This document shows positions 21,726-54,927 of a stretch of 64,000 bases of DNA, one piece after another. The stretch spans positions 27,992 to 91,991 of the forward strand of contig RDDZ01000039.1 of assembly GCA_003852775.1 (NCBI GenBank), read 5' to 3'. Made by a program: the position numbers and the translations under genes. Source of the DNA: Microbacteriaceae bacterium. GTDB lineage: Bacteria > Actinomycetota > Actinomycetes > Actinomycetales > Microbacteriaceae. The notes below the pieces were generated by a model. The model saw only the letters and a program-made list of their open reading frames with translations, had not been told where the DNA came from and did not search any database. Within the stretch, counting starts at the first letter, position 1; each line of letters starts with the position of its first letter.

Positions 21726-23159
21726 ATGCCTGATCTCTCGACACTGGGACAGCGGATGCGCCACTTCCGCACCGCCGCGGGCCTCACGCTCGGCGAGCTC
21801 GGCGACGCCGTGGGGGTGTCGGCGAGCCAGCTCTCCCTCATGGAGAACGGCAAGCGCGAGCCGCGCCTGTCGCTGCTGTCCTCGATCGCCGAGCACCTCG
21901 GCATCCCCGTCGCGGAGCTCCTCGACGACGCTCCCCCGTCGGCCCGGGCGGCCCTCGAGATCGAGCTCGAGCGCGCGCAGTCGGGAGCGCTCTACGCCGA
22001 GCTCGGCCTCCCCGCGGTGCGGCCCGGGCGCTCGATGCCCGACGAGGTGCTCGAGGCGCTCGTCGGCCTGCACCGCGAGCTCGACCGCCGCTCGCGCGAG
22101 AAGATCGCCACCCCCGAGGAGGCGCGCCGCGCCAACACGGAGCTGCGCGCCCGCATGCGCGAGGCCGACAACCACATCCCCGAGATCGAGGAGCTCGCCG
22201 AGGGCGTCATGCGCGACGTCGGCTACGACGGCGGCGCCGTGACCCACCGCCAGGTCGCGCTCATCGCGCAGCGGCTCGGCTTCGAGCTCGTGCACGTGCA
22301 CGACCTGCCGCACTCGGCGCGCTCGGTGACCGACCTCGAGAACGGCCGCATCTACCTGCCGCCGGCGTCGATCCCCGGCGGCCACGGCCTCCGCTCGATG
22401 GCCCTGCAGGCCATCGCCCACCGCTTGCTCGAGCACGAGCCTCCGCGCGACTACGCCGAGTTCCTGCAGCAGCGGCTCGAGATCAACTACTTCGCGGCCG
22501 CGTGCCTCATGCCGCGCGCGCACGCCGTGCGCCACCTCGCGCAGGCGAAGAACGACCGCGACATCGCGATCGAGGACTTCCGCGACGCGTTCGGCGTCAC
22601 GCACGAGGCCGCCGCCCTGCGGTTCACGAACCTCGCGACGGCGCACCTCGACATGCGCGTGCACTTCCTGCGCGTCGGCGACGACGGCGCGGTCGCGAAG
22701 GCCTACGAGAACGACGGGTTGCGGCTGCCCAAGGACGTGACGGGCGGCGTCGAGGGCCAGATCGTGTGCCGGTACTGGGCCGCCCGCACGGCCTTCGCCC
22801 GCACGAACCGCACGACCGAGTTCTACCAGTACACCGACACCCCGGAGGGCACCTTCTTCGAGTCGACCCAGACGGGCACGAGCGCGACCGACGAGTTCTC
22901 GATCACGATCGGCGTGCCGTTCAACGAGTCGAAGTGGTTCCGCGGGCGCGAGGCGACGCGGCGCGAGCAGTCACGCTGCCCCGACGCGAGCTGCTGCAAG
23001 CGCCCTCCGGCCGAGCTCGCGTCGCGCTGGGCGGGCAAGGCCTGGACGAGCGCGAAGGTGCACGCGCACATCTTCAGCCCGCTGCCCTCCGGCACCTACC
23101 CGGGCGTCGACGACCGCGAGCTGTACGAGTTCCTCGAGGCGCACCGCGCGAGCGACTGA
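21726..23159 (+). CDS. RamB/PrpR-like XRE-family regulator of acyl-CoA/acetate metabolism
   Basis: A 477-residue protein with an N-terminal XRE helix-turn-helix (LTLGELGDAVGVSASQLSLM), a central ImmA/IrrE-like peptidase-fold domain (LAHRLLEHEPP type: ALQAIAHRLLEHEPPRDYAE), and a cysteine-containing C-terminal region (CPDASCCKRP). Length and domain order match RamB of Corynebacterium and PrpR of Mycobacterium, which control acetate or propionate use. Location beside pckG-glpX fits control of gluconeogenic carbon flow. The start MPDLSTLG at 21726 is chosen because the HTH begins immediately after; the track start would read through the operator. Confidence 0.88.
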   Translation: MPDLSTLGQRMRHFRTAAGLTLGELGDAVGVSASQLSLMENGKREPRLSLLSSIAEHLGIPVAELLDDAPPSARAALEIELERAQSGALYAELGLPAVRPGRSMPDEVLEALVGLHRELDRRSREKIATPEEARRANTELRARMREADNHIPEIEELAEGVMRDVGYDGGAVTHRQVALIAQRLGFELVHVHDLPHSARSVTDLENGRIYLPPASIPGGHGLRSMALQAIAHRLLEHEPPRDYAEFLQQRLEINYFAAACLMPRAHAVRHLAQAKNDRDIAIEDFRDAFGVTHEAAALRFTNLATAHLDMRVHFLRVGDDGAVAKAYENDGLRLPKDVTGGVEGQIVCRYWAARTAFARTNRTTEFYQYTDTPEGTFFESTQTGTSATDEFSITIGVPFNESKWFRGREATRREQSRCPDASCCKRPPAELASRWAGKAWTSAKVHAHIFSPLPSGTYPGVDDRELYEFLEAHRASD

Positions 23160-23163
23160 CGGG

Positions 23164-23198
23164 GGTTTCGACACGCGCCCTTCGGGCGCTACTCAACC
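23164..23198. repeat. GGTTTCGACACGC...GCTACTCAACC structured repeat, copy 1
   Basis: The fixed flanks enclose a stem GCGCCC-TTC-GGGCGC. It is the first of three copies in the spacer after the RamB-like gene. Confidence 0.85.
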
Positions 23199-23207
23199 CG
23201 CGTGCGC

Positions 23208-23240
23208 GGTTTCGACACGCGGCTTCGCCGCTACTCAACC
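23208..23240. repeat. Structured repeat, copy 2
   Basis: The same flanks and orientation as copy 1, but the stem is GCGGC-TTC-GCCGC. The stem has changed on both sides while keeping pairing. Confidence 0.85.
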
Positions 23241-23264
23241 GGCGAGGGGCGCGGCGGACCAGCC

Positions 23265-23300
23265 GGTTGAGTAGCCCGCGCCAGCGGGCGTGTCGAAACC
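23265..23300. repeat. Structured repeat, copy 3 (inverted)
   Basis: The reverse orientation, GGTTGAGTAGC...GTGTCGAAACC, with stem GCCCGC-gcca-GCGGGC. Copies 2 and 3 face each other and could also pair as a large cruciform. Confidence 0.85.
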
Positions 23301-23304
23301 GCCC

Positions 23305-24024
23305 TCACCGCGTCTCGGCGGCGGGAATCGGCGTGCGGAAGATGCGCCCCATCCACAGCCAGACGAGCACCCCCGTCACGACCGTCACCACGACCGCGCC
23401 GATCGTCGTGAGGGCGATCGAGAGCGCCGCGTTGCCGAGCACCTGAGAGACCGTGCGCGCCGAGCTGAAGATGAGCCCCGTGAGCGCCCCGACGGTCGCC
23501 GAGAGCACGCTCGCGATCACGAGCCCCACCGCGAGCCCGAACCCGGTCACGTAGCCGGGGCGGTCGACCCGGTGCGCACGCAGCACGAAGAAGCTGACGA
23601 GGCATCCGGCCACGACGAACACGGCGCCGACGATCGCGAAACCGGCGGTCACGCCGCCGAGGGCCGCGGGATCGATGTCGCCGAGGGTCGAGTTGGCGTC
23701 CTTCGCCGCGGCGCTTCCGCTCAGGATGTTCGCCACCACGACGACGAGCGTGCGGATGACGGTGCTCAGGTACCAGACTCCGAGCGGCACTGCCAGCAGC
23801 ACGGCGCCGAGGGTCACGAGCGGGAGGGTGAGGGCCCCGGCGATGACGGTGCCGCGGCGGGCCTTCTTCTGCGCCGCGGCGGCAGGATCGGGAGATGTGT
23901 CGCCCTGTTTCTTCGCGGGCGACCCGGTCGACGCAGACGCGGATCCCGCGGTCGCGGTCGTCTTCGCGGACGCCGCAGGCGCCGATCGTGCGGGCTGCTC
24001 GGGGGATGCGGTGGTCTCGCTCAT
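23305..24024 (-). CDS. Four-helix membrane protein of unknown function
   Basis: A 239-residue protein. The first 55 residues are an Ala/Thr/Ser-rich cytosolic tail. Four hydrophobic helices follow (AGALTLPLVTLGAVLLAVPL; VTAGFAIVGAVFVVAGCLVS; GFGLAVGLVIASVLSATVGA; TTIGAVVVTVVTGVLVWLWM). No family motif is recognised. The start MSETTASP at 24024 is chosen because the upstream extension in the track is Arg-rich shadow coding. It converges on the RamB-like gene across the repeat cluster. Confidence 0.7.
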   Translation of the reverse strand: MSETTASPEQPARSAPAASAKTTATAGSASASTGSPAKKQGDTSPDPAAAAQKKARRGTVIAGALTLPLVTLGAVLLAVPLGVWYLSTVIRTLVVVVANILSGSAAAKDANSTLGDIDPAALGGVTAGFAIVGAVFVVAGCLVSFFVLRAHRVDRPGYVTGFGLAVGLVIASVLSATVGALTGLIFSSARTVSQVLGNAALSIALTTIGAVVVTVVTGVLVWLWMGRIFRTPIPAAETR

Positions 24025-53991: not shown

Positions 53992-54465
53992 TCACGAGCG
54001 GCCGGAGCGCCGCTTGTTGTAGACGTCGAACGCGACCGCGAGCAGCAGCACGAGACCCTTGACGGCCTGCTGCCACTCGATGCCGATGCCCATGATCGAC
54101 ATGCCGTTGTTGAGCACGCCGATGATGAGACCGCCGATGATGGCGCCGCCGATCGTGCCGACACCGCCCTGGACGGCCGCGCCGCCGATGAAGGCCGCAG
54201 AGATGGCCTCGAGCTCGAAGCCGTCACCGGCCTTGGGGCCCGCGAGGTTGAGGCGGGCCGTGAAGATGAGGCCGGCGAGCGCGGCGAGCACGCCCATGTT
54301 GACGAACAGCCAGAAGTCGACCCGACGCGTCTTGATGCCCGAGAGCTCGGCCGCGTGGCGGTTGCCGCCGATCGCGTAGATGTGGCGGCCGAACACCGTG
54401 CGGTTCATGACGATGCCGTAGATGAGCACGAGGGCGGCGAGCACGATGAGCGTGAGCTCGCTGCG
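53992..54465 (-). pseudogene. Sugar ABC permease (XylH/RbsC-like), C-terminal half only
   Basis: The minus strand reads MNRTVFGRHIYAIGGNRHAA, then ELSGIKTRRVDFWLF and GVGTIGGAIIGGLIIGVLNN, ending with FDVYNKRRSGRS. This is the conserved C-terminal part of xylose/ribose-type ABC permeases. The N-terminal half is missing: homology ends near 54465, where a different fragment on the opposite strand begins. No ATPase or binding protein remains nearby. Confidence 0.75.
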
Positions 54466-54870
54466 GTCCGCGAGGCCGCGCGCGCCGCTCTCGAGGCGCA
54501 TCCGGATGCCGCCGCGTCCGACGCGTTCGACGCCGCGCTCCCCGCGCCCCGGCTGCGCAGCGACGGCGCACCGCGACCCGTCAAGCTCGCCGAGCTCGAC
54601 CGCGCCGTGTACGCCTACCTCGACCTGTGCACGCGGATCGGCGTCTCCCCCGCCGTGCCCGCGCGCGCGGCGGGGGCGGTCGCGCTCGGGCGGGCCGCAT
54701 CCGCGCCCACCGAGATCCGCGCCGTCATCGCGGGGCACAGCATCCGGGCCACGGATGCCGACTGGAGCTTCGGCCGCGGCCCCGTGCTCGAGGACACGGC
54801 GGCGGCCCTGCTCGACTTCCTCGGCGGCCGCTCCCTCCGTGCGCCGCGTCCCCCCTCCCCGCTGAATGAG
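54466..54870 (+). pseudogene. 3' fragment of an unidentified gene
   Basis: The plus frame reads ALEAHPDAAASDAFDAALPA, then VYAYLDLCTRIGVSPAVP and IRAVIAGHSIRATDADWSF. This is convincing protein sequence, with a globular, Ala-rich character, but it has no start codon or 5' part and no in-frame stop before the repeat at 54893. The family is not recognised. It abuts the permease fragment head to head. Confidence 0.5.
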
Positions 54871-54892: not shown

Positions 54893-54927
54893 GGTTGAGT
54901 AGCGCCCGCAGGGCGCGTGTCGAAACC
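54893..54927. repeat. Structured repeat, copy 4 (inverted)
   Basis: GGTTGAGTAGC...GTGTCGAAACC with stem GCGCCC-GCA-GGGCGC, the same family as the three copies at 23164-23300. It lies between the gene remnants and the intact GntR gene. Confidence 0.85.

Follow-up and report, generated by a model that had tools for sequence, protein, structure and literature searches.

The window analyzed here, a 64,000-nt stretch of a draft Microbacteriaceae genome (G000; 2.79 Mb in 158 contigs), carries four copies of a short palindromic element, three of which fill the junction between two convergent genes:

Positions 21756..23159, + strand: gene for an XRE-type HTH regulator, convergent neighbour, with its stop codon 4 nt before copy 1.
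Positions 23164..23198, + strand: element copy 1, GGTTTCGACACGC-GCCC-TTC-GGGC-GCTACTCAACC.
Positions 23208..23240, + strand: element copy 2, GGTTTCGACACGC-GGC-TTC-GCC-GCTACTCAACC.
Positions 23265..23300, - strand: element copy 3, GGTTTCGACACGC-CCGC-TGGC-GCGG-GCTACTCAACC.
Positions 23305..23817, - strand: convergent neighbour gene with no Pfam family, its stop codon 4 nt from copy 3.
Positions 54893..54927, - strand: element copy 4, single and with an extended outer arm, GCTGGTTTCGACACGC-GCCC-TGC-GGGC-GCTACTCAACCAGC.

Four copies with these flanks and stems had been described in the first-pass annotation, and all were recovered at these positions; copies 2 and 3 form an inverted dimer with a spacer of 24 nt. 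Near copy 4, an ABC permease gene (53992-54501, - strand) matches only the C-terminal half of PF02653 (profile positions 136-269) and is apparently a truncated remnant. A search of the whole draft found 32 exact copies of the form GGTTTCGACACGC-N-GCTACTCAACC, and looser patterns found 34 (two bases trimmed per end), 39 (core only) and 43 (degenerate flanks), with no match to a reversed-pattern control. Among 400 genomes of the family, the repeats occurred in 153, which bears out the earlier statement that such strings abound in Microbacteriaceae, but their presence is patchy within genera: copy number ranges from 0 to 671 per genome, and the congeners G001 and G007 have none. The flanks had also been called fixed, and this holds within one species but not between species, where they differ and themselves covary. 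An Rfam 15 search with the element gave no match at the gathering score, the only hit being a sub-threshold CRISPR-repeat (17.6 vs. 45 bits), and a literature text search for the letters of the repeat returned only primers and unrelated sequence.

The proposal that a hairpin rather than a sequence is conserved was strongly supported, as covariation extends to the inner stem, the outer arms and one internal-loop pair. All stem cells in the 22 distinct G000 copies were standard pairs, and each of the three variable stem pairs changes on both sides (CG/GC/AU/UA). The stem covariation score was 0.629 compared to a shuffled mean of 0.142, with none of 500 shuffles as high and slid versions reaching at most 0.125. 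A large collection of copies without compensatory stem changes would have refuted the proposal; such changes were present in the collected copies, and this refutation therefore did not materialize. Across species the element takes the general form ARM-TCGA-N-stem-loop-N'-CTC-ARM', with flank variants that differ by species (TCGAC..GCTAC in G000, G002 and G067; TCGAT..GCTAC in G003; TCGAG..GCTCC in G016). Around the nuclease genes described below, the N/N' pair was T-A in 135 cases, C-G in 109, G-C in 48 and anything else in 26, and the arms were GGTT, GGTC, GGCT, CCCT, GATC or GATT, each with the matching complement. The constant part is the bulge motif, TCGA against CTC, and the rest of the helix is exchangeable. 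Most G000 and G002 copies have additional outer pairs, GCT/AGC or GGT/ACC (81-84% paired).

Among 302 elements, Watson-Crick pairs made up 944 of the 988 stem cells, and 158 of 186 triloops read TNC. With its closing pair, the TNC loop reads C-GNA-G on the other strand, which is an exceptionally stable, DNA-specific hairpin loop, and the near-constant TNC/GNA triloop hints at folding of DNA rather than RNA. As a clue to which strand folds, wobble pairs were counted on the TCGA/CTC strand of these elements; G-T pairs exceeded A-C pairs by 30 to 9, but this excess may reflect one inherited subfamily, while the TNC loops appear as GNA triloops on the other strand. Dimers less than 120 bp apart in G000 and G002 comprised 17 inverted pairs of the (+ -) type and 12 of the (- +) type. 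Two head-to-tail arrays of three elements in G002 (L099:6613-6727 and L105:8585-8756; periods of 40 bp and about 70 bp) are read as local tandem amplification.

To place the copies relative to gene ends, genes were called by a simple codon-usage method in 41 stretches from G000 and G002. These stretches were picked around copies, which biases overall density upward without favouring any junction type. Copies were present at 32 of the 72 convergent, 13 of the 278 codirectional and 1 of the 79 divergent junctions, so that they are concentrated between convergent genes (32/72 vs. 14/357 for all other junctions, p = 8e-18). Convergent gaps are typically about 145 nt long with copies and 40 nt without, and the distance from stop codon to element is commonly about 10 nt. 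The junction in the window measures 145 nt between stop codons, whereas its counterpart in locus L110 of MAG 72-143 (89% DNA identity) reads TGA-GCCT-TCA, with the stop codons 4 nt apart and no element. Other element-bearing junctions compare similarly with their empty orthologs in MAG 72-143 (G423, also G008) and Homoserinibacter gongjuensis (G424, also G004), namely 103 nt vs. 10 and 10, 165 nt vs. 9 and 3, respectively, and 144 nt vs. 10 in G423. Several orthologous junctions in H. gongjuensis instead hold that species' own TCGAG..GCTCC variant. The empty junctions and the species-specific variants at the same junctions indicate that elements come and go, and no target duplication or other target-site signature was evident at the compared junctions. 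Some copies lie within genes. One sits inside a long Lhr-like helicase frame of G000 (contig C126, L083:4025-4059) and four inside an Lhr-like helicase frame of G002 (L100:6517-10076), both frames apparently not being closed; further intragenic elements occur in ileS (L085:12103) and in two more genes (L101, L109).

A search for a linked endonuclease, which the first-pass annotation had suggested, led to a GIY-YIG gene, present in relatives only and missing from the draft that contains the window. In G002, seven copies surround an open reading frame of about 95 amino acids with a GIY-YIG domain (PF01541, E = 1.5e-12), whose nearest relatives in the PDB are the UPF0213 proteins 1zg2 and 1ywl. 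Homologs were detected in 92 of the 400 family genomes (95 with a profile search), including 65 of 99 genomes with at least five copies vs. 27 of 301 others (p = 4e-28). Since this association ignores kinship, a within-genus comparison was made of all 25 identifiable genera with both gene states; gene-bearing species had more copies in 17 genera, fewer in 3 and equal numbers in 5 (permutation p = 5e-5). Elements lay within about 250 nt of the gene on both sides at 70 of 90 loci, on one side at 16 and on neither at 4, compared to no both-sided cases in dinucleotide shuffles and 14 of 175 pieces more than 600 nt away that held an element. The variant beside the gene was the genome's own dispersed variant where checked (H. 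gongjuensis and MAG 72-143), and bracketing by own-variant elements was observed in most repeat-rich relatives. Among the members examined, no such bracketing was seen at Bacillus yazA or at UPF0213-type genes of the housekeeping kind from outside the family.

On a tree of 89 nucleases, arm labels changed 30 times vs. 49 when shuffled (minimum of 44 in 300 shuffles), and N/N' labels changed 23 times vs. 37 (minimum of 30). The repeat variant tracks the nuclease clade on this tree, which rests on few columns and has many weak forks. Paralogous nucleases within one genome (G002, G003, G005 and G067) carry different repeat variants. The active-site pattern is conserved, with Y2, Y12, R22, H26 and E59 invariant in A2. 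Nuclease genes with stops or split in two frames were found at G005 C3:688806, G004 C1:1054621, G383 C1:3335404, G370 C2:82521, G417 C1:3511258 and G289 C42:22058; recurrent decay of this kind fits a selfish gene. In G006, locus L223 is orthologous to L222, L232 and L250, with the nuclease gene reversed and another repeat variant.

No GIY gene of this type was found in the G000 draft even at E = 1, and a missed gene cannot be excluded because copies lie at contig ends (C1, C8 and C10). The repeat-GIY-repeat site of G002 is present on contig 136 of G000 with flanks 90-94% identical and the same two stem types, but without the gene. Two other relatives also have repeats without a nuclease gene at that site, so that insertion of the gene into a repeat site in G002 is no less likely than a loss. 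Either G000 lost the nuclease, or it never had it, or the gene is unassembled; the elements were kept.

We consider it probable, with appreciable doubt remaining, that the repeats belong to a REP/REPIN-like element, as its non-autonomous copies, and that the small GIY-YIG nuclease is the partner of this element. This explanation builds on the observed compensation in arms, N/N' and stems, the inverted dimers, gain and loss at convergent junctions, the bracketing of the GIY-YIG gene, its co-occurrence with the repeats, the match between repeat variant and nuclease clade, and the lack of Y1 transposases in repeat-rich genomes. Each element is predicted to fold as one DNA strand, with an outer arm, an asymmetric TCGA/CTC bulge, a freely varying inner stem and a triloop. 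The nuclease would use bulge and arm to recognize the folded single strand and would nick it, for example at replication forks, although there are no cleavage data. Host repair or template switching at the nick may then copy or insert elements, stems would drift because pairing alone is read, and most insertions that persist would be those in the gaps directly following stop codons. GIY-YIG enzymes hydrolyze DNA, and no DNA-joining activity is known for them; insertion would thus depend on as yet unspecified steps by the host. A driving role of the nuclease in the spread of the repeats is likewise an inference, and the direction of cause is the main gap, as the gene is missing from 23 of the 77 genomes with at least 10 copies (G000 and 22 others, including G076 with 671 copies).

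These 23 genomes would be accommodated if the GIY-YIG gene were a passenger, or a homing gene, with existing repeats as its insertion sites. Slippage during replication, recombination or template switching would then multiply the repeats and also produce the compensatory stem changes. This alternative is favoured by the inverted gene in G006, by the local tandem copies and by three relatives that have repeats but no gene where G002 has its nuclease, a pattern suggestive of a gene that landed in a repeat. Against it stand the within-genus link between the gene and copy number and the match of repeat variants to nuclease clades, and we regard it as unlikely without dismissing it. The nuclease and its target could instead benefit the host, with repeats marking chromosomal DNA, the enzyme acting on incoming or replicating single strands, and selection rather than self-spread keeping the copies. 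The parallel would be Neisseria Ssn/NTS and natural transformation, where the same kind of gene/repeat pairing occurs and a GIY gene is bracketed by dRS3-like repeats; the conserved active site is also in keeping with a host function. A selfish element agrees better with the patchy presence within genera, the wide span of copy numbers, the precise empty sites and the decay of nuclease genes, and a host-serving system seems to us improbable. The occupancy of convergent junctions so soon after stop codons would suit 3'-end transcription terminators or mRNA stabilizers of convergent genes. The hairpins, however, have no T-run and end in GCTACTCAACC, many convergent and orthologous junctions have 3-10 nt and no hairpin, both orientations occur, the two congeners lack copies altogether, and the bracketed nuclease gene is left unexplained. 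An intrinsic terminator was accordingly judged unlikely, and this class of explanation retains very little plausibility.

Repeats of the REP type are among the commonest small bacterial repeats, and we know of an accepted enzyme (RAYT) only for their GTAG class. The window's elements share the REPIN-type trait of a short extragenic imperfect palindrome in many copies, often as inverted dimers. They resemble GTAG-tagged REPs and REPINs, which have the RAYT transposase (PMC2817692, PMC3116915, PMC3733652), in the bulged palindrome, the GTAG foot of the window's species (GGTTGA-GTAG-C), though not of the element family throughout, the inverted dimers and the patchy high copy number, and the RAYT system in the bracketing of a partner gene by repeats. 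Mobilization by a RAYT (Y1) transposase would account for the GTAG at the hairpin foot, the dimers, the extragenic location and the copy number (PMC3733652). In contrast, a linked transposase, the other partner that had been suggested, did not emerge: Y1_Tnp (PF01797) was found neither in any of the 77 repeat-rich genomes (at least 10 copies) nor in other genomes of the genus, and the one family genome in which that search detected PF01797 (G019) has no repeats. The tag is not fixed either, being GGAG or GCAG elsewhere in the same element family. A RAYT partner was thus rejected, and this explanation, which would require a RAYT that PF01797 does not detect, is barely tenable; unlike the GTAG systems, the present one apparently has a GIY-YIG nuclease as its partner.

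For the CGTC-tagged REPs, among them dRS3 and RPE, no dedicated transposase is apparent, and what, if anything, mobilizes them was left open (PMC3733652). Like these, the present elements are short palindromes with dimers, a location after genes and no RAYT, and some CGTC REPs bracket GIY-YIG genes; unlike them, the conserved motif is TCGA/CTC rather than CGTC, and Actinobacteria are absent from that survey (PMC3733652). An unpaired CGTC (TGTC, CCTC) end tag is absent, since the ends are complementary arms and the unpaired motif is TCGA/CTC. Integron attC sites were considered because they too are bulged, structure-read hairpins, but the outer ends lack the attC orientation. The UPF0213 proteins noted above are the nearest solved relatives, but the housekeeping-type members examined are unflanked by elements. 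The closest characterized system we take to be Neisseria Ssn/NTS, in which a GIY-YIG single-strand nuclease is reportedly specific for the repeated NTS, work attributed to Chenal, Veyrier and coworkers in Nat Commun in 2025. Both systems have a small GIY-YIG nuclease and a cognate repeat in very many copies (here in relatives, not in the G000 draft), and one Neisseria GIY gene in this analysis was bracketed by dRS3-like repeats. They differ in sequence (here a TCGA/CTC bulge with freely covarying arms and stem), in the actinobacterial host and in the gain and loss at junctions, and there are no data here on single-strand specificity. If that account is right, the kind is known, and the present system is an actinobacterial variant with added evidence of mobility and coevolution. 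No paper in the literature collection searched names both GIY-YIG and repetitive extragenic palindromic.

Beyond the family, loci were few and picked by protein similarity, without an exhaustive count. In distant members of the phylum, inverted repeats, mostly of the GTCATTNCGAG or GTCATYCTGAGC type, lie near eight GIY genes that belong to another subtype. GIY genes are bracketed by ATTCCCGC..GCGGGAATGACGG in Neisseria gonorrhoeae, by GTCATCCCCGCG..CGCGGGGATCC in Azospirillum lipoferum and by GTCATCCCAGGG..CCCTGGGATCC in Rhizobium sp. CIAT894, and similar repeats lie near GIY genes in Novosphingobium, Sinorhizobium, Planktothrix, Methylobacterium, Sphingomonas (upstream only) and Spirosoma. 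Several of these taxa are listed with CGTC REPs (PMC3733652), and the repeats flanking the related nucleases of Neisseria, Azospirillum and Rhizobium are of the CGTC type. The data point to GIY-YIG partners for such repeats in Actinobacteria, and bracketing of the same kind is seen in Proteobacteria, Cyanobacteria and Bacteroidota.

A wider reading, which we offer tentatively and hold to be somewhat short of an even prospect, is that GIY-YIG nucleases mobilize a superfamily of palindromic repeats comprising the TCGA/CTC family of Microbacteriaceae and the CGTC REPs, that the enzyme reads the bulge in a folded strand, that enzyme and repeat coevolve as lock and key, and that together they make a single-strand mobile element without a transposase. 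Because the bulge would be what is read, arms and stems would be free to vary while paired. If true, a large class of 'orphan' bacterial repeats gains a partner enzyme. There are natural sets of enzyme/target pairs with specificity readable from sequence; the question is therefore open to direct testing, and such enzymes may be useful as single-strand-specific nucleases.

On Planktothrix agardhii plasmid p1 (L346), the repeat-flanked GIY-YIG gene is part of a defence cluster, with a type IIL restriction enzyme on one side and DISARM drmA on the other. Two PLSDB entries of about 2.17 Mb labelled as plasmids, NZ_CP119140.1 and NZ_CP119142.1, are evidently Neisseria gonorrhoeae chromosomes.
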